A DNA stretch of 23,921 nucleotides from a virus. The position numbers and the translations under genes were made by a program. The notes under the pieces are model-generated. The model ran no database searches. It worked only from the letters and a program-made list of their open reading frames with translations, and had not been told where the DNA came from. Shown here piece after piece: positions 1,813-23,846 of this stretch (position 1 is its first letter; every line of letters begins with the position of its first letter). The stretch spans positions 1-23,921 of IMG/VR virus record IMGVR_UViG_3300037882_001878. One strand, 5' to 3'.

Positions 1813-2550
1813 ATGTCTCCATGTGAAATAATTTATAATATCGGTTCAAATCAAAAAAAGTATGGTTCATTGGCTGGAATTTGTCGAATTACTGGAAAAG
1901 AAAGTTTAGGTATAAAATTCAATAATTGGGTGAAAGATACATTTACTGAACACGGAAGCCTAAAAGTCGGTACTATAATTTCGAACGAAGCTTTGTTTTG
2001 TTTTGATGAAGCAAGCGAAATAATAAAAGACAAAACAGGGAAGGATAAGCTACAAAGATTCAGAACCTATTCACACATTGTATTGAATGGGGAGTGGTTT
2101 TGTTTTACAAAAGCTCATAAAAAAGAAATTTTTGAAGCAATTAAAAAAGGTGCTGAAATTGTTTGCTTAACAGATACAGGACAAAAGCACTTATTGTTTA
2201 AGCATAAAATTGGATTCTGGCAGCTTGACGAATTGTTTGTAAAGCCAGATTTAGAGTTTTTCCTGTCACTTCATTCGGCAATGACAGATTTAATGAAGAT
2301 CGGGTTTAATCAGTCTTCGATTATAGACGGTAATTATAACCCAAATTTTATTCAAAAAAACGGATTTGAAATATGGCGAGAAAAAGAAACCTACTTGAAA
2401 AATTACAGAGGTTGCGGAATGTTTAATTTCGCATCATGGATGTTGTTCCTTTACGAAAGTGACAAAGATAAAGTCAATGAACAACTGTCCAAAAAAAAAC
2501 CTAAAAAGGAACAAAAAGAAACAATAGTGCAAGAAAAAGTAAAACAATAA
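1813..2550 (+). CDS. csf1: Csf1-like protein of a type IV CRISPR effector (degenerate zinc finger)
   Basis: The 245-residue protein opens the cassette and matches my recollection of Csf1, the large-subunit-like zinc-finger protein of type IV CRISPR complexes. The similar parts are AGICRITGKE (residues 21-30), DTFTEHGSL (42-50) followed by SNEALFC (57-63), and DTGQKHLLFK (121-130), equivalent to the SGQKH-type motif of the family. Csf1 usually carries two CxxC pairs; here only Cys24 and Cys63 remain at those places (CRIT, ALFC), so the finger is probably degenerate. The C-terminal 25 residues are a highly charged Lys/Glu/Gln tail. Position directly before Cas11-like, Csf2 and Csf3 genes strengthens the call. 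Without that context I would have called it hypothetical. Confidence 0.6.
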   Translation: MSPCEIIYNIGSNQKKYGSLAGICRITGKESLGIKFNNWVKDTFTEHGSLKVGTIISNEALFCFDEASEIIKDKTGKDKLQRFRTYSHIVLNGEWFCFTKAHKKEIFEAIKKGAEIVCLTDTGQKHLLFKHKIGFWQLDELFVKPDLEFFLSLHSAMTDLMKIGFNQSSIIDGNYNPNFIQKNGFEIWREKETYLKNYRGCGMFNFASWMLFLYESDKDKVNEQLSKKKPKKEQKETIVQEKVKQ

Positions 2551-2561
2551 AGTTTATTCTA

Positions 2562-2906
2562 ATGAAAGAACAAGAAATTACACAAGAATCGGTAGCCGAA
2601 AATCTACTATGGGGGCTTTGGAGATCAATTAGCGAAGATTACAAAATGAAATACCCTCGAGATATATGGGATCATTTTGAAAATGCAATGAAGTCGGCTT
2701 CATACACATCTTCACTAAAATCATTTTTAACACTATTTCAAAGACGCTTTCCTTTAGACTTGCAAGAACAATATACGAAAGGTATAAAAAGTATTTTGGA
2801 ATCAGGGAGGGATGAAGAAATACTCGGATGGCTAAGGGACGAATCCACGTATATGGTTATGATTGTACGCATAAGAAACCAGGAAAGAAAAGAGGCATTT
2901 AAATAA
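2562..2906 (+). CDS. Cas11-like small helical subunit (putative)
   Basis: This 114-residue protein looks entirely helical, begins 11 nt after the Csf1-like gene and ends 23 nt before csf2. Size, fold class and position match the small subunit (Cas11) that type IV-B loci carry between csf1 and csf2 and that lines the Cas7 filament. The C-terminal third, ILGWLRDESTYMV then IVRIRNQERKE, is an amphipathic basic helix suitable for RNA or subunit contact. Sequence identity alone does not prove the family, since Cas11 proteins diverge quickly. A separate helical phage protein is the alternative. Confidence 0.5.
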   Translation: MKEQEITQESVAENLLWGLWRSISEDYKMKYPRDIWDHFENAMKSASYTSSLKSFLTLFQRRFPLDLQEQYTKGIKSILESGRDEEILGWLRDESTYMVMIVRIRNQERKEAFK

Positions 2907-2929
2907 TCACATTAAAATTATTAAGCAAT

Positions 2930-3829
2930 ATGAAAACTTATATCTTAGAAGGAATAGTAACGGCAACATCCTCAATTTGCCACAATGGAGGCGAAAAAAA
3001 CGGAACAGTAACCCAATTTAGGCGTGAAAAGTTTGTCCAAAAAAACGGCAAAACGATTGAAATCCCGATCATTTCAGGCAATTCGATTCGTGGGAAGTTG
3101 CGAGATATTGCAGCCGTTGAAATCCTAACAAAGAACAACGGTGTAAAAATAAAAGTGGATGCAGATTCATTTAATCTTTTGTTTTCTGGTGGTAGTTTAG
3201 AAAGCACAGGAGAAACAGGCGTAAACGTAGAGAAGGTGAGGCAGATGCGAAAAGATATGCCAATGTTATCAGTTTTAGGAGGTTCAGTTGGTAATATTAT
3301 ACTTCCTGGCAAAGTGGAGGTCGGTAAAATGATTCCGATTGCAAAAGAAACGCTACATCTAATTCCTGTTAAGTTTCACACGGCATATGATGAACTACCC
3401 AAATCTATTTGGGAGTATTGTCAGCTGGAAATGTACACCCGTAAAGATGATGCTAAAGACGAGGTAAAAAAGGAATTTCTAAATGTCGAAGTTTCTGAAA
3501 AAAAATCGCAGATGAAATATGACATTGAGACGCTAGCAGCTGGAACTAAGTTTTATTGGAGGATTTGCCTAAAAGATACAACTGATCAAGAAACGGGGGC
3601 TTTCTTGCAAACCCTACAAACATGGTCAGATATGAATAGCCAAGTTGGGGGAAATGGAAGGATAGGCCACGGAAGTTTGAAGCTAGAAATAAAAGAAACT
3701 AAAATAATTGATTCCGAGCTGGACTTTAAAAATGAAGACTTTGTAACGTTTATAGATGCTTACCAAGAGAATAAAAAGGACGTTTCTAGCTATTTTGAAA
3801 AGGGAATTTCTAAATTACTATTCGAGTGA
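2930..3829 (+). CDS. csf2: Csf2 (Cas7-family RAMP), backbone subunit of a type IV CRISPR complex
   Basis: Csf2 polymerises along a guide RNA to form the backbone of type IV effector complexes. The 299-residue protein has the family pattern in order: ICHNGGEKNGTVTQFRRE (residues 16-33), PIISGNSIRGKLRD (46-59; the RAMP SGNSxRGxLRD motif), PMLSVLGGSVGNIILPGKV (111-129), MKYDIETLAAGTKF (195-208), and the glycine-rich RAMP loop GGNGRIGHGSLKLE (240-253). I see no aspartate in the early loop where type III Csm3 carries its RNA-cleaving residue, so target RNA cutting by that route is not expected. The stop codon overlaps the GTG start of the next gene (GTGA at 3826-3829), indicating coupled translation. 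This is the strongest single piece of evidence for a CRISPR-type cassette in this phage. Confidence 0.87.
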   Translation: MKTYILEGIVTATSSICHNGGEKNGTVTQFRREKFVQKNGKTIEIPIISGNSIRGKLRDIAAVEILTKNNGVKIKVDADSFNLLFSGGSLESTGETGVNVEKVRQMRKDMPMLSVLGGSVGNIILPGKVEVGKMIPIAKETLHLIPVKFHTAYDELPKSIWEYCQLEMYTRKDDAKDEVKKEFLNVEVSEKKSQMKYDIETLAAGTKFYWRICLKDTTDQETGAFLQTLQTWSDMNSQVGGNGRIGHGSLKLEIKETKIIDSELDFKNEDFVTFIDAYQENKKDVSSYFEKGISKLLFE

Positions 3830-4290
3830 TAGATAATTCTGATTTAAAACAAAAGCTATATTTAAGAAGAAGAGGAATGTCGTTAGTCCCGCCACCTTCT
3901 CTTATTGTAGATATGTATGCAGGTGAGGGGCATATTTCAGATTTGATATGGAGGCATTATGATTGTTCTTTGATTTTAATTGAAAAAGAACAATCAAAGG
4001 TTGATAAAATCAAATTTGGCGAAGTAATAGTAGGAGATAACAGTAATTATTTAGACAAAACAAAGCTTGCAAATGTTGTTGATTGTGATGCGTATGGGCT
4101 TGTATTTAAAATAATAAAGGACATCGTTGCATTGTCTGAAACTCATAAGATTATTTTTTTTACTGAATCAAATCCATTTTCAAAAAGTATCTACAAAGCG
4201 ATTGATTCTATTTTAGAATTAAAACCTAAAGCTTTTTGGATTGAAAAATCAAATAATTCATCAGTTTATTATGGATATTTAATAAAATAA
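3826..4290 (+). CDS. Small SAM-dependent methyltransferase-like protein inserted between csf2 and csf3
   Basis: A 154-residue Rossmann-type protein with a GTG start overlapping the csf2 stop by four bases. Residues 28-36 (VDMYAGEGH) resemble methyltransferase motif I, LIEKE (51-55) the acidic end of strand 2 that binds the SAM ribose, and VDCDAYG (85-91) the motif IV region; DAYG recalls the DPYG of some tRNA methyltransferases. It has no obvious target-recognition domain, so the substrate is unknown: RNA, DNA or protein are all possible. Type IV-B loci commonly carry the cysH-like gene as accessory partner, and none is present here. The four-base overlap argues that it works with the cassette. 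A catalytically inactive Rossmann protein is the alternative. Confidence 0.6.
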   Translation: MIDNSDLKQKLYLRRRGMSLVPPPSLIVDMYAGEGHISDLIWRHYDCSLILIEKEQSKVDKIKFGEVIVGDNSNYLDKTKLANVVDCDAYGLVFKIIKDIVALSETHKIIFFTESNPFSKSIYKAIDSILELKPKAFWIEKSNNSSVYYGYLIK

Positions 4291-4306
4291 TTTTAAATAT
4301 TGTTTC

Positions 4307-4948
4307 ATGAAAGCATTAAGAATAAGAGCGTATTTACAAACGCCTGTAATTTCGGACAAAAACATACCTTTTGATTCTATTCTGTATTATCATCATGTTC
4401 GTGATATAGCAGGAGAGGAAGTTTTAACAAAATCAGGAGAAAGTGCAATAAGGGAAAGTTTAGTACCATTGCTCCCTTTTAAAAAGGGTGGGCGAAGAGA
4501 TGAAACTTGGTTTTATCATTGTTCATTTTCGCAATGGCCTCGGAATACTGTCGAAGACTCTAGTTTTAAAGTAAAAAAAGGAGACTGGATTGACAAAACA
4601 GATTTTCTAAACGACAAGACAAAGCGAATTGACAACCAGCGTGGGAAATTTAAAGCGTACCACATTAAAATGTACTACCGATTTTCGAACTACATCGATT
4701 GGTATTGTGTAGGAGACGAAGAAAAAATAATGCGATTGCTTCAATTTTGTACAGCAATTGGTAAAAACACTGGCGATGGTTGGGGGCAAATCATAAAATG
4801 GGAGGTTTCAGAATGGCCAGAAGATTGGAGTATTAGAAACTCAGAAGGAAAGCTAATGCGGTCTATACCTTGCGAAACTGGCATTCCCTACGGAGTTCGG
4901 CCTTCTTATTGGAATCCAAGACATATAACTAGGTGCATCGTTCCGTAG
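4307..4948 (+). CDS. csf3: Csf3 (Cas5-family RAMP) of a type IV CRISPR complex
   Basis: Csf3 is the Cas5-like subunit that caps the 5' end of the guide in type IV complexes. The 213-residue protein begins with the RAMP strand ALRIRAYLQTPVI (residues 3-15) and a PFDSILYYHHVRD segment (21-33). It has the glycine-rich loop IGKNTGDGWGQIIKWEV (151-167), then WSI...GKLMRSIP (174-188), and the C-terminal signature YGVRPSYWNPRHITRCIVP (195-213), which I recognise as the Csf3 GxRPPYW end. It lies 16 nt after the methyltransferase-like gene and closes the cassette. No cas6/csf5, dinG/csf4 or array follows; the portal gene starts 134 nt downstream. Confidence 0.83.
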   Translation: MKALRIRAYLQTPVISDKNIPFDSILYYHHVRDIAGEEVLTKSGESAIRESLVPLLPFKKGGRRDETWFYHCSFSQWPRNTVEDSSFKVKKGDWIDKTDFLNDKTKRIDNQRGKFKAYHIKMYYRFSNYIDWYCVGDEEKIMRLLQFCTAIGKNTGDGWGQIIKWEVSEWPEDWSIRNSEGKLMRSIPCETGIPYGVRPSYWNPRHITRCIVP

Positions 4949-5082
4949 TATAAAGTTACTAAGTCTTGGTTATTTTAACTTGGTTAACCTAGTCTAATGG
5001 CTAACCTAGTCTAATGGCTAATTAAACTGTTTAATAAACATACGAATAAGTAAGGTCTAAAATATCGTCATAGCATTGCGCT
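4949..5082 (+). repeat. Intergenic region with 17-bp tandem repeat and 15-nt palindrome
   Basis: The gap between csf3 and the portal gene contains two exact head-to-tail copies of TAACCTAGTCTAATGGC (4985-5001 and 5002-5018) and the start of a third. It is followed by the perfect palindrome ATTAAAC-T-GTTTAAT (5021-5035). Looser variants of the unit lie just before it (AAGTCTTGGTTA at 4961-4972, GGTTAACC at 4982-4989). There are no spacers, so this is not a CRISPR array. It may be a regulatory site at the junction between cargo and head module, or a scar of the cassette's insertion. Confidence 0.6.
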
Positions 5083-11026: not shown

Positions 11027-13297
11027 ATGTCAGCATTTACAATAGGTAGCGTAAAGATAAGGATAGGAGCGGACACAACCGCACTAACCAACGACCTTGC
11101 AAAGGCTGGACGATCTCTAAAGAAGTCGGGTAAGGAATTGCAACGTATAGGCGAAACCATGGCAATAGGGATAAGCCTGCCGCTTGGTCTCGCTGGTGGA
11201 GCTGCTATAAAATTGGCTAGTGATGTACAAGAGTCGCTTAATAAAGTAGATGTAGCATTTAAGTCAAGTAGCGAGGTTGTAAAACAATTTTCAAAAACAT
11301 CTTTACAATCGTTTGGTCTATCTGGTGGCAGTGCCTTGGAAATGGCATCTTTATTTGGCGATATGGCTACGTCTATGGGTATATCTACGACGGAAGCGGC
11401 CAACATGTCAACTACCTTAGTAGGTCTCGCTGGTGACCTCTCTAGCTTTAAAAATATCGCAACAAGCGAAGCGCAAACGGCCTTAGCTGGTATATTCACA
11501 GGTGAAACGGAATCGCTCAAAAGGTTGGGTATTGTAATGCTGGATACTCAAGTAAAATCTTTTGCAATGTCGCAAGGATTCAGGGGTAATTGGGAACAAG
11601 CATCACAGGCAGAAAAGGTATTTTATAGATATCAATTTGTCCTTAATGCAACAAAAAACGCTCAGGGAGATTTCCAAAGAACGTCGGGCGGTGCTGCCAA
11701 TCAAACAAGGATATTTCAAGAAAACTTAAAAGAAATCGGAGCGACATTAGGTAATGTATTATTACCTAAATATACTGCATTCTTACAGACGCTTAACCAA
11801 ACAGCGACCAAGTTCAATAATCTAAATCAAGGGCAAAAAGAAGCTGTGGTAAATACTGCTGGTATGGCTACAGCTATAGGGCCGTTGATATTTGCATATG
11901 GAAAAATAAAGGAAGTATTTGGAGACTTATTAACCAAGTTGCCAAAGGTGGGTTCAAATCTTGGACGGCTTACGGGTTTGGGTTTGGTATTTGTGGGACT
12001 GTGGAATAATTTTGATGTGGTTGTCACATCATTTCAAAACTTAGCGGCAAAGATTGGATTTACTATTCCAAAATTGGATATTTTAAAAACACTGTGGGAG
12101 GGGTTTAATGGTGCGATTCGTACAGGTGTAGGGATTATCTACGTATCTATTGCCACCTTGATAGAATTGGTAAAGGTAATAGGCAAAAGTAGTCAGGCGT
12201 TATCTACATTTATTCAACAGGTAGTAAATCCATTTGACGGTAAAAGTCCAAGTGATGCATGGGAAGACTTGACTAAAAATATAAGTTCCAATTTTAGCAA
12301 TTTTGGGAAGAATATAAAAAATGACTTCTTAACTGCTGTAGGCTTTATTTCAGATAGTGAAATCAAAGCTCCCAAAATAGGTGGTTTACGTGGTGTAGGC
12401 GGCCTAAGTGGTGAAGCTGCTTCCATTGCACCGACTGGAGGGAATAAAGCCGCTGGAGGTGGTGCAAAATCAACCTCAAACGAACATAGAGAACAATTTG
12501 AGGTAGTAAGTTTACAAAGTCTTGGAACGCTGCAAGTATTCAATAAAGAAATGGCAGCGGCTAACTTAATATTTCAAGATACTCAATCAAAATTAGCGGC
12601 AGTAAATTCTCAATATAAATTCCTGAATGATGACAGTGGTAAGGCGGCGGCGCAACAATCTATTTTAAAAGATGCATTGGTGCAAGTTGGGGAACTAGGA
12701 TTAACGCCGCAAAATGCACAGGTGGGGCAATTGATAGGGCAATACACTGCATTAGGAGCAAAAGTCGACGAGGTCAAAACTAAAACTGATGCATTTGGAG
12801 TTAGTGTAGCTTCATCTATTCCAGTTGATTTTACGGGGTTACTTCAAGGGGTTGGTGAGGCCCTTGGAGGGTTGTTTTCAGGTGATGCTGGTAGTGGAAA
12901 TTTTTTTAAGAAAATACTAGGAGCTTTAGGGTCTTTCATGCAAACATTAGGTTCTCAATTATTGGTTGCATCTAAAGCACTGGCAGCATTGCAGACATTA
13001 AACCCGGCGTTAATGGCAATAGGAGGTATAGCATTAATTGCAGCAGGTACAGCCATTCAATCATTAGCTGCTAGGGGTCCTAAAGGGCCAAGCCTTGCGG
13101 TCGGTACCGATAGGGTATATAGAGATGGGTATGCTTTCTTACATGCTGGAGAAGAGGTAAGGACGGCGGCACAAGTGCGAGGCGGTGGGAATAGTGGCGG
13201 CTCAGGCGGTGGCTACATAATGGGTGAATTGCAAGGCGATAAAATGTATCTACTTGCTGAAAATAGTAGAAAGTACAAACTAAATAGGCTACGATAA
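11027..13297 (+). CDS. Tape measure protein
   Basis: The 756-residue protein sets tail length. It has an N-terminal DTTALTNDLAKAGRSLKKSGKELQ helical region, the tape-measure core with alternating helices (MASLFGDMATSMGIS..., near residues 105-200), Gly/Ala-rich hydrophobic stretches (near 275-300 and 640-680) and a C-terminal Gly-rich tail. Using the rule of about 0.15 nm per residue, the tail would be about 110 nm long, typical of a siphovirus. It starts one base after the chaperone stop and its last base overlaps the hub gene. Confidence 0.92.
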   Translation: MSAFTIGSVKIRIGADTTALTNDLAKAGRSLKKSGKELQRIGETMAIGISLPLGLAGGAAIKLASDVQESLNKVDVAFKSSSEVVKQFSKTSLQSFGLSGGSALEMASLFGDMATSMGISTTEAANMSTTLVGLAGDLSSFKNIATSEAQTALAGIFTGETESLKRLGIVMLDTQVKSFAMSQGFRGNWEQASQAEKVFYRYQFVLNATKNAQGDFQRTSGGAANQTRIFQENLKEIGATLGNVLLPKYTAFLQTLNQTATKFNNLNQGQKEAVVNTAGMATAIGPLIFAYGKIKEVFGDLLTKLPKVGSNLGRLTGLGLVFVGLWNNFDVVVTSFQNLAAKIGFTIPKLDILKTLWEGFNGAIRTGVGIIYVSIATLIELVKVIGKSSQALSTFIQQVVNPFDGKSPSDAWEDLTKNISSNFSNFGKNIKNDFLTAVGFISDSEIKAPKIGGLRGVGGLSGEAASIAPTGGNKAAGGGAKSTSNEHREQFEVVSLQSLGTLQVFNKEMAAANLIFQDTQSKLAAVNSQYKFLNDDSGKAAAQQSILKDALVQVGELGLTPQNAQVGQLIGQYTALGAKVDEVKTKTDAFGVSVASSIPVDFTGLLQGVGEALGGLFSGDAGSGNFFKKILGALGSFMQTLGSQLLVASKALAALQTLNPALMAIGGIALIAAGTAIQSLAARGPKGPSLAVGTDRVYRDGYAFLHAGEEVRTAAQVRGGGNSGGSGGGYIMGELQGDKMYLLAENSRKYKLNRLR

Positions 13298-15465
13298 TGG
13301 GAGTGCTATTTACCACAGGGCTAAAATATGCCTACGATCGAGCCTATAAGGTTGACATAATTGATAAGGATGCCGCAACTGACAATAATGCACTGTTTCA
13401 GCTTCGTAGCGACAGTTTCGATGTTAATGATGAGGATTATAACTTAGTTTCGCATATAGCTCCAGTAAGCTATGTTATAGAAGCATTTCAAACACCAGCT
13501 TTAATATCGTTCATAAATGATTTTATAGAGAATGGTGAGGGCCGTTATTTTCTTAAGTTATCTGATAGCATTGGGAAAGTATTTTTCTTTGGTAGATTGA
13601 TAATTGATAGTATTGAGATAGGTACCGAAAAGCTGGACACTATACGATTTACGGCAATAGATGGATTAACGCTTTTGAAAAATATTGATTTTGAAATCGT
13701 AGATGGATCGATCAAAACTATTTTTGGAATCATTCATCAATGCTTGAAAAAACTTGACAAATGGGCCTTGCATGGGGCGACTGATGCATGGTTAATAACG
13801 TCAACAAAATTCTATCTAAATGATCCAACATTTACGCCTAATGTATCTGAGCCACTCAATGCTATAGGACACTATGGATATTGGCAAAAAGGAGAAAATA
13901 AAAAGTCATGTTGGGATGTCCTAAGTGAGATTTTGAAAAGGTATGGCTTAAGGCTGGATTCTGTAGATAATCGCTACTATGTAAGGTTTACAAAATTGAT
14001 CTACACTAATGTTACGAATTATAAACCTTACGACAAAAATGGAAATCTATTAACTGGAGTATTGCATTTTGGTCAAAACTTCAATGCTATAAATACTTTT
14101 GGTAGGAATGGGAAATATCATCTATCTGGAGGTGTGAAGGCTGTGACATTCAAGAGACAAAAAGAGTTTATTGATGCCAGGAACATTGTTAGGAAAATTG
14201 CACCTTATGGGGTACAAGAATGGATAGGGTATTATGAAAGTGTAGGAGCTGAATTAATAATAAAATTTAGACAAAATTCAGGATTACCATTTACACACCG
14301 TGAAGCTAGGTTAACAATATTAATAGAACTGCAAGGAGAAACGGAAACCAAATATATACAGTTGAAGAATCCTATAACTTACATGCAAAGCGAAGCATTA
14401 GGAATTATTACATACGAACATCAAGAGCCTACAACGACGGTCAATAATGATGTAAGAATAAAGCTTGATAGCGATACTTCTGCTGCTAGGGTATTCAGTG
14501 TAAAACCTAAATTGACTGGTAAGGTAAGGGTAAGGTGTTACGCTGTATTCGTTGGATTCTATGACGCTATAAATAATCAATTATCTACAAATGGAAGTAC
14601 TACAAATATAACTTGCGAAATTCTGGACCAGGCAAAAGACACAACGGAATTTGAATTGGTCACGGAACGTAACACAACTAATAATTATACCGATAGCATT
14701 ATAGAATTGATGGCTACAGATACCAACTGTAATAAATTAAGTATTGGGTACCTTACCAGCAGTGCGATACAGGCTAATAATTATACTACTGATGTTATAA
14801 TCAGTAGCCTAAAAAATAAATTCGCTACTGAAGATATCTATACCTACGATTATGTTGACAGAGCAATCTTAAATGATTTTCTAAGGTTCTTAACACCTGT
14901 GAAGAAAATGTATTTTGGTACTATAAATCTAAAGGATAGGCGACCGATCACTGTACTTGATACATTTACCTATGGTGGCGAAATCTTCATGGTAAAATCT
15001 GTGAAGCAATCAATATTTGATTATCATGCAAATGTCGTAGGTGTAAAAATAGGTGTAAAACCAATAGTACCAATCGAAGTGCCACCGACCAAAGAGCCAC
15101 CAAATCATTTACCAGATCTTGGTGGTCTATGGGGATCTAAATCTGGAATAAATGGAACAACGGAAGAGCCCTATTTTGAGGAGTTTTTAAACGTAACAGG
15201 TAATGAAGTTACATTCACTAACTACTCACTACCGATTACATTAGTACCTGGTGAAGCTAGGACTTATCCAAGCATGAAAAAGAGCATTGAGATTCATGTA
15301 GATGATTCTTTGTTTTACATGGTTAACCTAGAATCAGAATTGAAAGCTCGTGATAGTTCTTACATCACTTTAGGAAATAATAAAATAAAATTCAGTAGGC
15401 CGCTCGATGGATCGAGGGTCACAATAAAAATTCATAACTATATAAAATTTGGTACAGTCATATGA
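13297..15465 (+). CDS. Tail hub / distal-tail baseplate protein (putative)
   Basis: A 722-residue beta-rich protein directly after the tape measure gene, in the slot of the distal tail and tail-associated proteins. Its N-terminal third (FDVNDEDYNLVSHIAPVS, then GKVFFFGRLIIDSI) resembles a hub domain; the middle (NIVRKIAPYGVQEWIGYY) and a proline-rich linker near residue 595 (PIEVPPTKEPP) lead to a C-terminal beta domain. I do not see a clear enzymatic site. Order and size make a tail hub likely, but the family is uncertain. The stop overlaps the next ATG by 4 nt. Confidence 0.65.
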   Translation: MGVLFTTGLKYAYDRAYKVDIIDKDAATDNNALFQLRSDSFDVNDEDYNLVSHIAPVSYVIEAFQTPALISFINDFIENGEGRYFLKLSDSIGKVFFFGRLIIDSIEIGTEKLDTIRFTAIDGLTLLKNIDFEIVDGSIKTIFGIIHQCLKKLDKWALHGATDAWLITSTKFYLNDPTFTPNVSEPLNAIGHYGYWQKGENKKSCWDVLSEILKRYGLRLDSVDNRYYVRFTKLIYTNVTNYKPYDKNGNLLTGVLHFGQNFNAINTFGRNGKYHLSGGVKAVTFKRQKEFIDARNIVRKIAPYGVQEWIGYYESVGAELIIKFRQNSGLPFTHREARLTILIELQGETETKYIQLKNPITYMQSEALGIITYEHQEPTTTVNNDVRIKLDSDTSAARVFSVKPKLTGKVRVRCYAVFVGFYDAINNQLSTNGSTTNITCEILDQAKDTTEFELVTERNTTNNYTDSIIELMATDTNCNKLSIGYLTSSAIQANNYTTDVIISSLKNKFATEDIYTYDYVDRAILNDFLRFLTPVKKMYFGTINLKDRRPITVLDTFTYGGEIFMVKSVKQSIFDYHANVVGVKIGVKPIVPIEVPPTKEPPNHLPDLGGLWGSKSGINGTTEEPYFEEFLNVTGNEVTFTNYSLPITLVPGEARTYPSMKKSIEIHVDDSLFYMVNLESELKARDSSYITLGNNKIKFSRPLDGSRVTIKIHNYIKFGTVI

Positions 15466-19384: not shown

Positions 19385-19825
19385 ATGGAAAATAAGATAA
19401 TAGAAATAGCTATAAAAGAAATTGGCTATATCGAGGATAAAAATAATAGTACAAAATACGGAAAATGGTTTGGGCTGGACAAGCTCGCATGGTGTGGTAT
19501 CTTTACTTCATGGGTGTATTTCAAAGCTGGTTTTAAAATGCCTGTGATCGGATTTGACAAGGGCTTTGCATCGTGTCAATTATTCTACGAATGGGCAAAG
19601 AAAAATAATAAAATAGTATCAGATCCACAAAGCGGTGACATTGTTTTATTTGATTGGAATGGAGACAATCGATTCGACCATGTTGGTTTATTCGATCAAT
19701 GGAAAGTTAAAAATAAATCATTCCATACTATCGAGGGCAACACCTCATTGAAAAATCAATCGAACGGGGGCATGGTTATGCAGCGATTAAGAACCGTCAA
19801 AACTGCCGTATTTGTGAGAATATAA
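19385..19825 (+). CDS. Endolysin, CHAP-type amidase/endopeptidase
   Basis: A 146-residue single-domain lysin of the NlpC/P60-CHAP type (TIGR02594-like) that cuts peptidoglycan. The catalytic Cys37 is in AWCGIFTSWVY, the His99 in RFDHVGLF after SGDIVLFDW, and the third polar residue is in IEGNT (Glu117/Asn119). There is no signal peptide, so it needs the holin. It has no cell-wall binding domain, as is common for lysins of Gram-negative hosts. Confidence 0.88.
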   Translation: MENKIIEIAIKEIGYIEDKNNSTKYGKWFGLDKLAWCGIFTSWVYFKAGFKMPVIGFDKGFASCQLFYEWAKKNNKIVSDPQSGDIVLFDWNGDNRFDHVGLFDQWKVKNKSFHTIEGNTSLKNQSNGGMVMQRLRTVKTAVFVRI

Positions 19826-19901: not shown

Positions 19902-20282
19902 ATGGCTTCAATAAAATCAAAAACAATAACGGCTCTATACGTGCCAAAAAAATCAAGTACGGAAATACCACAAGATTCAAGGTACAAAACCAATAGATGG
20001 AAAATCTATTCTTTGTATACCAGGGAATCTTATCCAATATGCATGTTGGATAATAAACCGACTGAACCAAGGTTATTAGCTGTAGATCACATCATACCAG
20101 TTTCGCAAGGTGGGAGCTTTTGGAATCCAAAGAATCATCAAATTATTGGCTGGTCGCTTCACAGTAAAAAAACCAAAAGAGAAAAATATCAAAAATTGGA
20201 ATGGGTGTTGGATGAGTTTGGCGATAAAATTCCAAAGGATTTGAGCATCAAAAGCGTACACCATATTTTATTAAATTATTGA
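19902..20282 (+). CDS. HNH endonuclease lacking the usual zinc cysteines
   Basis: A 126-residue HNH protein. The core VDHIIPVSQGG (Asp62, His63), then NPKNHQ (Asn78) and SLHSKKTKRE (His87) give the His-Asn-His set. The normal CxxC pairs are reduced to one Cys (YPICMLD) and the second is replaced by IIGWSLH, so zinc is probably not bound. Phage HNH proteins commonly assist terminase in genome cutting and lie next to terS/terL. Here it lies after the lysis terminator and next to the att-like site, so a homing or other role is also possible. Confidence 0.75.
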   Translation: MASIKSKTITALYVPKKSSTEIPQDSRYKTNRWKIYSLYTRESYPICMLDNKPTEPRLLAVDHIIPVSQGGSFWNPKNHQIIGWSLHSKKTKREKYQKLEWVLDEFGDKIPKDLSIKSVHHILLNY

Positions 20283-20306
20283 TAGATAGGTTTTAATGTT
20301 GGTTTA

Positions 20307-20328
20307 TTCGAATCTCCCCAGCTCCACA
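20307..20328 (+). other. Attachment site: 3' end of tmRNA gene (ssrA)
   Basis: The run TTCGAAT (T-loop, 20307-20313), CTCCC (T-stem 3' strand), CAGCTCC (20319-20325) and A-CA is the 3' end of a tmRNA: CAGCTCC pairs with the universal tmRNA 5' end GGGGCTG. Directly upstream there is no GGGAG to close the T-stem and an HNH gene fills the place of the tmRNA body, so this is only a 3' fragment. Phages often integrate at this position of ssrA. With phage genes on the left and a terminator on the right it fits attR; attP in a free genome is the alternative. Confidence 0.7.
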
Positions 20329-20360
20329 AAATAAACCTCAAAAGACTTCCAAACGTCTGA

Positions 20361-20396
20361 AAGCCTAACAAAATAAGAATTGTTAGGCTTTTTTAT
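20361..20396 (+). terminator. Strong intrinsic terminator, possibly that of ssrA
   Basis: AAGCCTAACA (20361-20370) and TGTTAGGCTT (20381-20390) form a perfect 10-bp stem around a 10-nt loop, followed by TTTTATTTT. It begins 33 nt after the tmRNA fragment, consistent with the host ssrA terminator remaining at attR. Confidence 0.85.
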
Positions 20397-20422
20397 TTTC
20401 GCTTAGTATCGTTTTAAATCGT

Positions 20423-20478
20423 TACATTTGTGCTATAGTGTACACCATAGGTACACTATATTTTTTTGGTGTACACTA
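20423..20478 (+). promoter_or_regulatory. Promoter-like TACATTTG with overlapping GTGTAC inverted repeats
   Basis: TACATTTG (20423-20430) matches the TAnnTTTG -7 box of Bacteroidota. Next come TATAGTGTAC (20434-20443) and its inverted copy GTACACTATA (20451-20460), then T7 and GGTGTACACTA (20468-20478), the exact reverse complement of TAGTGTACACC (20436-20446). The sites cover the expected transcription start and look like repressor operators. The first hairpin plus T7 also has the form of a terminator, and the second pairing is mutually exclusive with it. The 20283-20683 stretch holds only the att site, terminator, these signals and the leader of the next gene. Confidence 0.6.
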
Positions 20479-20565
20479 ATTCTAAAACTATCTACATGCT
20501 GCCAAAGGTCATTTTGGTGAAATAAAAGATAAATCACATGTGTTAAAATATTGTTAAATATATAG

Positions 20566-20602
20566 TATAGTGTACATTATTCAAATGGTTGTTGTATATT
20601 TG
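20566..20602 (+). promoter_or_regulatory. Second promoter with GTGTAC operator
   Basis: A third TATAGTGTAC (20566-20575) lies where the -33 region would be for TATATTTG (20595-20602), a perfect TAnnTTTG box. This promoter would start transcription about 75 nt before the ATG at 20684. Sharing the operator with the upstream promoter suggests joint repression. Confidence 0.55.
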
Positions 20603-20655
20603 TATTGTGATTAGAAGGAAGGACATGAGAGACACTCTAATTATAAAAAAAACTT

Positions 20656-20683
20656 GAGGCTGCAACCTCGCAAACACAAAAAA
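20656..20683 (+). promoter_or_regulatory. Leader stem-loop, copy 1
   Basis: GAGG-CTGCAA-CCTC forms a small hairpin (20656-20669), followed by GCAAACAC and an A run up to the ATG at 20684. A second gene at 21357 has the same leader with a compensated stem pair. Confidence 0.55.
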
Positions 20684-21232
20684 ATGAAAATATTAATTAA
20701 TCCTGCCGACTATTTTGAAAGATATAACGGTGGATGGACAAAGGAGATTACTTGTCTTGACAAAGAAAAAACAAATGGCTATTCTCTTTTAGGAGAATTT
20801 ACACAAAAAGGGACACAGTGTTATGAAGGAGGTAAGCTTTATCTTGATTGTGGAATCGGTGGGTCTCGAAAAAACAACAAAAAGATTTATTCGCTTTTTA
20901 CGATAACGAAACAAGGAGACACTTGTGATGTAGAAGTAATAAAGGTAATTGGAAAAGCTGATGGATCCGAAAACTATGAAGGAAATGCATCAGATTGGGC
21001 AATAAAATTCTGGACTGCAATAGAGGAATTTTTTGCTAAATCAAGTGTTGTAGATGTACAAGCTTTGGTTAAAAGACATAAAGAATTGATTGCGGAGCTT
21101 GTTGAGCTTGAACGAATCTTAGATATAGAACACAATAAGGTAATAGATCTTGTAGATGACGCTGATATTGCAGACAATCCAGACCTTGCAAAGCCAGCTC
21201 CATTTAATGAAATACAGTACTTAACTTTATAA
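20684..21232 (+). CDS. Hypothetical protein with structured leader
   Basis: A 182-residue protein of unknown family. It has a beta-rich first half (GYSLLGEFTQKGTQCYEGGKLYLDCGIGG), a middle with KFWTAIEEFFAKS, and a C-terminal coiled coil (LVKRHKELIAELVELERIL). I chose ATG 20684 over the in-frame TTG at 20654 because the intervening bases belong to a leader shared with the 21357 gene and an A-rich stretch precedes the ATG. It is the first gene after the operator-bearing promoters and probably regulated accessory cargo. Confidence 0.7.
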   Translation: MKILINPADYFERYNGGWTKEITCLDKEKTNGYSLLGEFTQKGTQCYEGGKLYLDCGIGGSRKNNKKIYSLFTITKQGDTCDVEVIKVIGKADGSENYEGNASDWAIKFWTAIEEFFAKSSVVDVQALVKRHKELIAELVELERILDIEHNKVIDLVDDADIADNPDLAKPAPFNEIQYLTL

Positions 21233-21298: not shown

Positions 21299-21328
21299 GA
21301 AGCAAATATAACAATATTAATTTAAAAT

Positions 21329-21356
21329 GAGCCTGCAAGCTCGCAAACACAAAAAA
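21329..21356 (+). promoter_or_regulatory. Leader stem-loop, copy 2
   Basis: GAGC-CTGCAA-GCTC forms the same hairpin as copy 1 (21329-21342), with the inner G-C pair replaced by C-G, followed by GCAAACAC and an A run to the ATG at 21357. Loop and downstream sequence are unchanged. Confidence 0.55.
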
Positions 21357-21989
21357 ATGAAAACAGCAAAATTTACTAGAAACGGTGAAAGCCCGAAATT
21401 TATCCCTGGTTTTAATTACAAAGGATTCTTAACCTCTAGCGTCCAAATCGGAGTTGGAGAGGCTATAAATAAAGGAGGATTTACAGCAGACGGAGACGGA
21501 GAAACTTGGGAAGAGTATAAGTCCTATAAAGAAAAATACCGCCCTTATTTCGACAATAATAGCATGGATGCATCTACTAGAGACTTCGTAAAATATAATA
21601 TTGCCGACAAAGATTTGAGAGATGTAATCGGTACTGAATATGAAAAATATCTGATAATTTTTGGAACTACTGCGAATTATACAGTAGTTGATGTCGAAGA
21701 GGAAAAGGCAAACAAAGCAGCTGAAGAAGCTAATTCTGTTGCCAATAAAAGTATTCCGATAAAAGTAATAGATGGCAGCTTTGGAAAGAAAATAGTTACA
21801 AGACTTCCCGCTGAACTTTTTGCAAAAATAAAGCACGAAGCTAAATATTGGAGTGCCGCCGACATTGACGACTGGAACGAAGACATGGACGATTTTAGCA
21901 AAGTTGGTGACGGCAAATATGATAAAGGCTGGTACTATACAGAAAATGCCGTAGAAATATTAAAAAATTTAGGTTACGAAATTATATGA
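21357..21989 (+). CDS. Hypothetical acidic protein with structured leader
   Basis: A 210-residue protein of unknown family, acidic in its centre (VVDVEEEKANKAAEEA) and end (DIDDWNEDMDDFSKVGDG). The C-terminal YYTENAVEILKNLGYEII end is compact. ATG 21357 is preferred to the in-frame ATG at 21327 because the latter falls inside the shared leader. The next gene starts on a 4-nt overlap, so the two are co-translated. Confidence 0.7.
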   Translation: MKTAKFTRNGESPKFIPGFNYKGFLTSSVQIGVGEAINKGGFTADGDGETWEEYKSYKEKYRPYFDNNSMDASTRDFVKYNIADKDLRDVIGTEYEKYLIIFGTTANYTVVDVEEEKANKAAEEANSVANKSIPIKVIDGSFGKKIVTRLPAELFAKIKHEAKYWSAADIDDWNEDMDDFSKVGDGKYDKGWYYTENAVEILKNLGYEII

Positions 21990-22399: not shown

Positions 22400-22619
22400 C
22401 TGATCTAATAATAAATGAAGCGAGAAAACGCCACGCTTTGTTTATAAAAAAAGGCGTAAAGAAATGAATTTCACTCAGTCCGACCTAGCAAAAAAATGCG
22501 AAGTTAGCCTACTGACTATTCAGAAAATCGAATCAGGTAGATGGAACTACTCTATAGACATCTTGAATAAAATAGGTGAAATATTAAGTTTTAATATTGA
22601 CCTATTTTGTGTTAAATGA
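22396..22619 (+). pseudogene. XRE-family HTH regulator split by a -1 frameshift at A7
   Basis: The first frame encodes MTDLIINEARKRHALFIKK and stops at 22467. The HTH part lies in the -1 frame: RRKEMNFTQSDLAKK, then CEVSLLTIQKIESGRWNYS and ILNKIGEILSFNIDLF, ending at 22619. A -1 shift at A AAA AAA (22446-22452) joins them into a 74-residue XRE protein with an uninterrupted HTH start (RRKEMNFTQSDLA). A separate 51-residue protein could also start at ATG 22464 on an ATGA overlap. Causes could be programmed frameshifting, a genuine mutation or a homopolymer sequencing error. Confidence 0.65.
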
Positions 22620-22689: not shown

Positions 22690-23187
22690 TTACCTATACT
22701 CCACTTCCCGACCAAACGACCTAGCTACTTTATCCATTATTAAAAATGGGTATGTTTCCAGATATTTATGTTGTGATTGACCTTTGCTATTGGTACGATT
22801 ACGCATATTGAAATAAGGTATCAAAGGGGTCGCTGAACCGTTACCCGTAAATATTGCCAGCGAATCTTTTACCCTCACATTTATAGTATAATTTGCGTTC
22901 CAATACTTTGGAAAAGCGACGGGTTTCGTGGTCACTGTCATAAGATCGTTATCTTTTCGATCTATCATATAGCCATTATCCAAAAGGCCGTTACAGGCCT
23001 CTAAAAAGGTCAATCCTTTGACTATAATCTGGGTGGCGTCTTTTGGTATCTTGGCCGATGCCGGTGTAGGTACCATATTTTGGCTTGATAGGTTCCAATG
23101 TTCTGAAAATGAAGCATAGGCATATCGGTTGACTACCTTGATATACTTAAGATCGGAATCTATTATAGTGGCTTGAGGTATTAATTT
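22690..23187 (-). pseudogene. Hypothetical protein gene, probably 5'-truncated
   Basis: The minus-strand frame is open from 23187 to the stop at 22690. The only in-frame ATG is at 23076 (128 residues, MVPTPASAKIPKDATQ), but good coding sequence continues upstream (DSDLKYIKVVNRYAYASFSEHW) up to a TAG at 23188-23190 with no start codon. The protein has SAKIPKDATQIIVKGLTFLEAC and KYWNANYTINVRVKDSLAIF, which I associate only with hypothetical Bacteroidota proteins. The missing start and the adjacent truncated repressor suggest a recombination junction near 23150-23190. Confidence 0.5.
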
Positions 23188-23320
23188 CTAAGATAGATGT
23201 AGAAATAGGATATTTGTTCTTTAAAACCCTACTTAAATAGTCGTCTGTAACCCCAATAGAGGCCGCAAACGCTTTTTGCGTCAATTGTTTTTTTCTTATA
23301 AATGCCTTTATATCATTCAT
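23147..23320 (-). CDS. Short XRE-family HTH repressor, C-terminally truncated
   Basis: A 57-residue minus-strand protein, MNDIKAFIRKKQLTQKAFAA followed by SIGVTDDYLSRVLKNKYPIS, is a clear Cro/CI-type HTH. After STSILEI, where helix 5 should continue, the sequence turns into INTSSHYNRFRS and stops, overlapping the other frame of the neighbouring gene. The HTH is complete enough to bind DNA. It faces a divergent promoter and early genes at 23366 onwards, as a lysogeny repressor would. Confidence 0.65.
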   Translation of the reverse strand: MNDIKAFIRKKQLTQKAFAASIGVTDDYLSRVLKNKYPISTSILEINTSSHYNRFRS

Positions 23321-23517: not shown

Positions 23518-23554
23518 AGAGGATACCTGTAAAAGTATTGGTATCCTCTTTTTT
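23518..23554 (+). terminator. Intrinsic terminator in the leader of the early genes
   Basis: AGAGGATACC (23518-23527) and GGTATCCTCT (23540-23549) form a perfect 10-bp stem with a 12-nt loop, followed by T6. It lies between the promoter at 23366-23397 and the ATG at 23613, so it either ends a small RNA of about 150 nt or attenuates the operon. The 23321-23612 stretch holds no other gene. Confidence 0.85.
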
Positions 23555-23612
23555 AAAACGAAATTCTAAGTTCGCATTACTGCAAAATCAAATTATAAAT
23601 AATAATTTAAAA

Positions 23613-23846
23613 ATGGAAATAAAAGAACTCAAGGCACTCAAGGCCCTCACATGTGAGGAGCGATACCAATACTTTAAGGAGTTGAAAAGAAAGCTCCCAA
23701 GAAGCGTGACGCTATCAAAGATAGCTAGGAAATCAAATACAAGTTACGGCCTCGTAACTCAGGTGTTTGCAGGACTAAGCACAAATGAGGCTATTATGAA
23801 TGCAATAATCTTTTTTGTAAATCAAGAGGAGAAAGTAGTAGCATGA
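23613..23846 (+). CDS. Small HTH-like regulator (putative)
   Basis: A 77-residue basic protein. The part RSVTLSKIARKSNTSYGLVTQVFAG resembles a helix-turn-helix (SKIARKSNTSYGLVTQV). I use ATG 23613, with A-rich context; the longer frame from 23538 starts inside the terminator hairpin. As the first gene behind the divergent promoter it could be a Cro-like or early regulator. The next ATG overlaps its stop. Confidence 0.6.
   Translation: MEIKELKALKALTCEERYQYFKELKRKLPRSVTLSKIARKSNTSYGLVTQVFAGLSTNEAIMNAIIFFVNQEEKVVA

Follow-up and report, generated by a model that had tools for sequence, protein, structure and literature searches.

The 23,921-base viral contig analysed here carries, apart from any tmRNA body, an exact copy of the 3' end of ssrA. 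This fragment is probably the attachment-site core through which a temperate HK97-like siphophage infecting a Saprospirales-type bacterium integrates at the ssrA 3' terminus, with the contig representing attP. The window, by which we mean this whole stretch of DNA, is a single IMG/VR virus record, classed as linear and truncated at both ends. We favor attP of a free phage over the right boundary of a prophage with moderate confidence; it is no more than moderate since both contig ends are truncated and neither an integrase nor a second copy of the core is present. The fragment most likely serves as a landing site through which the phage can join the host chromosome without breaking ssrA.

Anatomy of the ssrA-end copy

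Direct reading of the sequence gives a 21-nt tmRNA 3' end without mismatch, TTCGAATCTCCCCAGCTCCAC, whose parts are listed in Table 1. Homology begins exactly at T54, because the position preceding the core, where the 5' strand of the T-stem would lie, reads GTTTA in place of the GGGAG that pairing would need. No tmRNA was detected in the window by ARAGORN, by Rfam (E<=1) or with the RF00023 tmRNA model; the body is absent and the 3' end copy stands alone. The first-pass annotation had described T-loop, T-stem 3' strand, acceptor strand and A-CA without a tmRNA body, followed by a perfect terminator, and both parts of that description held: the first by direct reading and the negative ARAGORN and Rfam searches, the second by a perfect 12-bp hairpin 3' of the fragment. 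Base composition shows no break across 20.3 kb.

Table 1. Features at and around the ssrA-end copy, in window coordinates
Feature	Position	Strand	Remarks
CHAP/NlpC-type endolysin	19385-19825	+	late gene left of core
HNH endonuclease	19902-20282	+	last gene left of core; phrog_589, 6e-13; Pfam matches below curated cut-off
GTACACCATA	20256-20265	+	candidate arm-type site (P side) or chance copy of operator-like motif
Putative att core O, TTCGAATCTCCCCAGCTCCAC	20307-20327	+	T54 to base after discriminator A; identical to ssrA 3' end in L025, L027, L028, L029
T-loop TTCGAAT	20307-20313	+	direct reading
T-stem 3' strand CTCCC	20314-20318	+	direct reading
Acceptor strand CAGCTCC	20319-20325	+	direct reading
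Discriminator A, then CA	20326	+	direct reading
Intrinsic terminator	20360-20391	+	12 perfect pairs, arms 20360-20371/20380-20391; T-rich tail
GTACACYATA/GTGTAC cluster	20434-20478		20434 -, 20440 +, 20451 +, 20465 - (1 mismatch); candidate P' arm sites or repressor operators
GTACACTATA, exact copy	20566-20575	-	upstream of first right-hand gene
ORFan	20654-21232	+	right of core; no family; likelier start ATG 20684
ORFan	21327-21989	+	right of core; leader with same hairpin as 20654 gene (repeat D1)
ORFan	21986		right of core
Short HTH protein	22464-22619	+	best NCBIfam match RstR-type phage repressor, below curated cut-off; Pfam HTH_3 above cut-off
ORF	22690	-	right of core
Cro/CI-type HTH protein	23147-23320	-	divergent from 23538 gene; HTH_3 above cut-off
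Putative early regulator	23538-23846	+	weak matches: phrog_7284 1.2e-4, phrog_27705 2e-4, phrog_14302 6e-4

It is very improbable that the fragment is instead what is left of a phage tmRNA gene, captured or permuted, or reflects some other non-att use of the sequence. Viral contigs with a complete or permuted tmRNA and the same 3' end do exist (L003, L009 and L013), but in the window the 5' strand of the T-stem is missing, the GGGGYTG start is absent near the fragment (the nearest one listed is at 12848), and ARAGORN and Rfam are negative; neither both strands of a tRNA-like domain nor a 5' piece nearby was found. These three IMG/VR contigs hold complete tmRNA genes (tags VNDYQPTYAYA and GDYQPSYAYAA) and one tmRNA flagged as permuted, and several of their sister contigs retain the same 3' end, yet ARAGORN reports no tmRNA in them.

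ssrA as probable source of the core and as integration site

The same 21-mer also terminates tRNA-Ala genes in L004, L017 and L026, so that the motif alone does not establish a tmRNA origin. We scanned 84,980 prokaryote species genomes (257 Gb) for the 21-mer followed by a base other than C and recovered five stretches only, four of them ssrA of Saprospiraceae or Bacteroidetes and one a Chloroflexi tRNA-Ala (L026); with so few matches in 257 Gb, four being ssrA, the match is not due to chance. All four ssrA records, from Saprospiraceae or uncultured Bacteroidetes, match the window at 21/21 nt. Three, L027, L028 and L029, comprise an entire tmRNA gene with the tag GESNFALAA; the fourth, L025, holds just the 3' part of a tmRNA that the locus end truncates. 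Each of the four Bacteroidota genomes has a single copy of the core, located in ssrA, and a search of 396 genomes of the order recovered it from three of the four alone (G001, G002 and G004). Identity between the window and L029 extends to 25 nt (core plus AAAA) and then ends; the G53-C61 pair is present in all clade ssrA genes displayed, and it is exactly there that the window diverges.

A derivation from a tRNA-Ala gene, with a tRNA rather than the tmRNA as integration site, would account for the shared 21-mer in L004, L017 and L026, but we consider it improbable: those examples come from one Chloroflexi genome and from two viral contigs whose gene runs on into an encoded CCA, and all four Bacteroidota genomes carry the core once, in ssrA. 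As far as sequence comparison can assign it, the Bacteroidota evidence points to ssrA as the source of the core. The core was also found in 17 other IMG/VR contigs, which were considered as similar att fragments and rejected, since every one keeps the GGGAG that completes the T-stem and is thus a tmRNA or tRNA-Ala end.

We asked how ssrA is used in the clade by drawing on 120 genomes from the GTDB family of L029, all of which have a tmRNA match (107 above cut-off), and examined 80 ssrA loci, 78 of which came from those 120 genomes and had a readable 3' end, with up to 20 kb downstream of each. A profile based on 16 integrase domains from this order identified a tyrosine integrase directly after ssrA at two of the 80 loci, in genomes G255 and G451. 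Each also has a body-less tmRNA 3' copy farther downstream, CTTCGGAAATCGGCGGCTCCAC at 20.3 kb from ssrA in G255 and a copy terminating in CCCCAGCTCCACCA at 28.3 kb in G451. These pairs are attL/attR of ssrA elements (G255:C14, L146 and L182; G451:C5, L133 and L188), and in both the attR is built like the window fragment. With an integrase after ssrA and a far body-less copy in each, they show ssrA to be used for integration in this clade. The proposal of the first-pass annotation that integration occurs at ssrA is accordingly supported, both by the exact host-type tmRNA 3' end in the window and by the similar copies at the far ends of these two elements. The ORFs within the G255 element suggest a restriction-modification island. 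A further ssrA-end copy (L097 1-320, genome G396) was rejected as an element, being a tandem duplication of about 160 bp that includes the terminator region. In a limited literature search we found no earlier report of ssrA integration in this Bacteroidota group.

Free-phage attachment site or prophage boundary

All genes left of the core, up to 20282, are on the + strand and comprise terL (5' truncated), portal, protease, major capsid, connectors, tail and tape measure, with a holin-like protein, the endolysin and the HNH gene at the late end. Right of the core, no host genes are recognisable from 20.4 to 23.9 kb; this region contains ORFans, a divergent regulatory region and two HTH genes of Cro/CI type (Pfam, PHROG and NCBIfam matches with E > ~1e-3 were left out). 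The first-pass annotation had the phage genes ending left of the fragment and the fragment marking the probable right prophage boundary; given this right-hand content, neither statement is supported as made, and attP of a free phage, which the annotation named as an alternative, fits better. The right side looks like a phage lysogeny/early region, and is neither recognisable chromosome nor demonstrably part of the same phage. Homologues of the 21327 and 23538 proteins were not found in 198 genomes of the order, nor were relatives of the 20654, 21327, 22690 and 23538 proteins where searched in INPHARED and IMG/VR, negative results that carry little weight unless paired with a positive control; the 22690 protein gave one weak match only in the 198 genomes, and INPHARED contains no DNA relatives of the att region. 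Missing homologues do not prove a phage origin of the right side, and this counts against attP. Two consecutive right-hand ORFans are each preceded by one of two near-identical 49-nt leaders (20642-20690 and 21315-21363), each with a small hairpin, GAGNNTGCANNCTC, and terminating in CGCAAACACAAAAAAATGAAAA; the exact leader repeat was not found in IMG/VR.

Between terL and portal (1813-4948, +) the window also encodes a type IV-B-like CRISPR effector cassette, which is more interesting than the ssrA copy itself. It has matches to Csf1/Cas8-like (6e-9), Cas11 (9e-21), Csf2/Cas7 (3e-68) and Csf3/Cas5 (3e-47) proteins, and holds in addition a 154-aa protein of Rossmann/methyltransferase-like appearance. 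Relatives of Csf2 with 45-79% identity are present in viral contigs (L191, L192, L193, L194 and L195), which were rejected as sibling phages, as only the cassette was found in common with the window. Four of these (L191, L192, L194 and L195) have a PP-loop (CysH-like) gene in the position of the 154-aa gene, so that the window cassette may be a type IV-B variant in which cysH has been replaced. Directly 3' of the Csf3 gene are two adjacent 17-nt copies of TGG(T/C)TAACCTAGTCTAA (4981-5014), with a third copy (82%) at 15320.

We hypothesize that the late genes and the lysogeny/early genes of the phage lie on one molecule, separated by P arm, core O and P' arm in that order, and that recombination between the 21-bp core and the ssrA end identical to it would be catalysed by a tyrosine integrase encoded beyond the contig. 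The host tmRNA body would become joined to the phage copy of the T-loop and acceptor end, and by virtue of this phage-borne 3' end the tmRNA would remain intact. The terminator next to the core could have a role in both states, ending the late operon transcript in the free phage and the tmRNA transcript after integration.

The repeats flanking the core are consistent with such an arrangement. Five exact copies of the motif GTACACYATA occur in the window against an expectation of 0.07, and all lie within 20256-20575, one left and four right of the core. In an unbiased scan that took in words with at least three G/C, GTACACTATA at 20434-20566 was the only 10-mer in the whole window with three copies in 400 bp (0/60 shuffles). 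The 10-mer GTACACCATA is shared by the two sides, at about -51 and +113 relative to the core. The cluster on the right is significant; the lone left-hand copy is not significant on its own, since a 10-mer common to both sides is seen with 9% of the window's pseudo-cores. G451 has a 13-mer in common between its P and P' arms, at positions near -60 and +130 (0/1912 random pairs), and G255 has three copies of TATATGGTG on its P' side. The window repeats have a geometry similar to that in G451, suggestive of attP, in which a single core is flanked by arm sites for the integrase. The 10-mer also belongs to a palindrome (TAGTGTACACTA-like; TAGTGTACACCA...TGGTGTACACTA, I4 and I16) beside a promoter-like region, and may instead be a repressor operator, for which a palindrome is expected. 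It is tempting, if rather far-fetched, to picture an ssrA-type attP with a distant integrase, in which P' arm-like repeats are combined with palindromic operators and a promoter, such that one protein could couple lysogeny control and integration.

Several observations count against attP. A profile search found no integrase among the ORFs of the window, a contig truncated at both ends, while in G255 and G451 the integrase directly adjoins the core. The core occurs only once in the truncated contig, which also offers no host flank for comparison. On the attP reading the HNH gene would be the neighbor of att, whereas its place in TerL-related prophages is immediately upstream of the terminase. 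Those prophages (31-34% identity) were rejected as a guide to the position of int and att, there being no tmRNA near any of them. Phages related through TerL and HNH have an integrase-like ORF (~190-500 aa) just upstream of HNH, at ~0.6-1.2 kb in L018, L019 and L021 and at 7797-9290 in L076; in G197 an integrase-like ORF adjoins HNH.

The fragment could also be attR of an integrated prophage, as the first-pass annotation proposed, with the DNA right of the core being either host sequence that follows ssrA or the next element of a tandem array, a possibility to which we give a minor but real share of our belief. The attR of G255 (+20.3 kb) and of G451 (+28.3 kb) matches the fragment in anatomy, Dehalococcoides has islands in tandem with 20-bp ssrA repeats between them (PMC3146451), and the native ssrA of the clade is often followed by a terminator, with the 31-nt spacing of the window in range (12 of the 52 detected are at least 33 nt away). 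Terminator spacing does not discriminate a host flank from that of a phage and was rejected as a criterion. Against attR, the right-hand genes are HTH regulators and ORFans with no recognisable chromosomal genes among them, a second ssrA element should, like those of G255 and G451, open with its integrase and 3.6 kb revealed none, and the window flank is unlike the native flanks of ssrA genes with the same core. We retain attP as the favored assignment.

Comparison with known ssrA elements

Integration at ssrA is common across phyla according to the authors of the Dehalococcoides study (PMC3146451), and the window is for that reason an ordinary new case: the type of site is well known, and is met here in a little-studied Bacteroidota group. 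It changes little beyond host assignment and the calling of boundaries. The rare exact ssrA 3' end would tie an uncultured phage to a Saprospirales-type host lineage, and G255 and G451 are two further examples of ssrA integration in this group.

The vcr-GI islands of Dehalococcoides are bounded by 20-bp repeats of the ssrA 3' end, with insertion inferred in the T-loop (PMC3146451). The window resembles them in having an ssrA 3' copy, and its 21-bp identity likewise begins in the T-loop. They differ from it in using serine recombinases (DsiB), in occurring as tandem islands and in having no phage structural genes (PMC3146451), whereas the window is a siphophage with no integrase visible. CP4So of Shewanella oneidensis, together with CP4-57 of E. 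coli, represents P4-type prophages at ssrA, and its integration and excision alter a base of the tmRNA (PMC5148205). Like these, the window would represent a phage-related element at the 3' end of ssrA; unlike it, CP4So is a cryptic P4-like element of Gammaproteobacteria with the integrase beside ssrA (PMC5148205). Within the clade itself, G255 and G451 share with the window the same target gene and position and a body-less tmRNA 3' copy, which in them lies at the far boundary, and G451 in addition has repeats common to both arms at similar distances. Both differ from the window in that the integrase directly follows ssrA, the shared core is only ~14 bp, and the inspected ORFs include no recognised phage structural genes.
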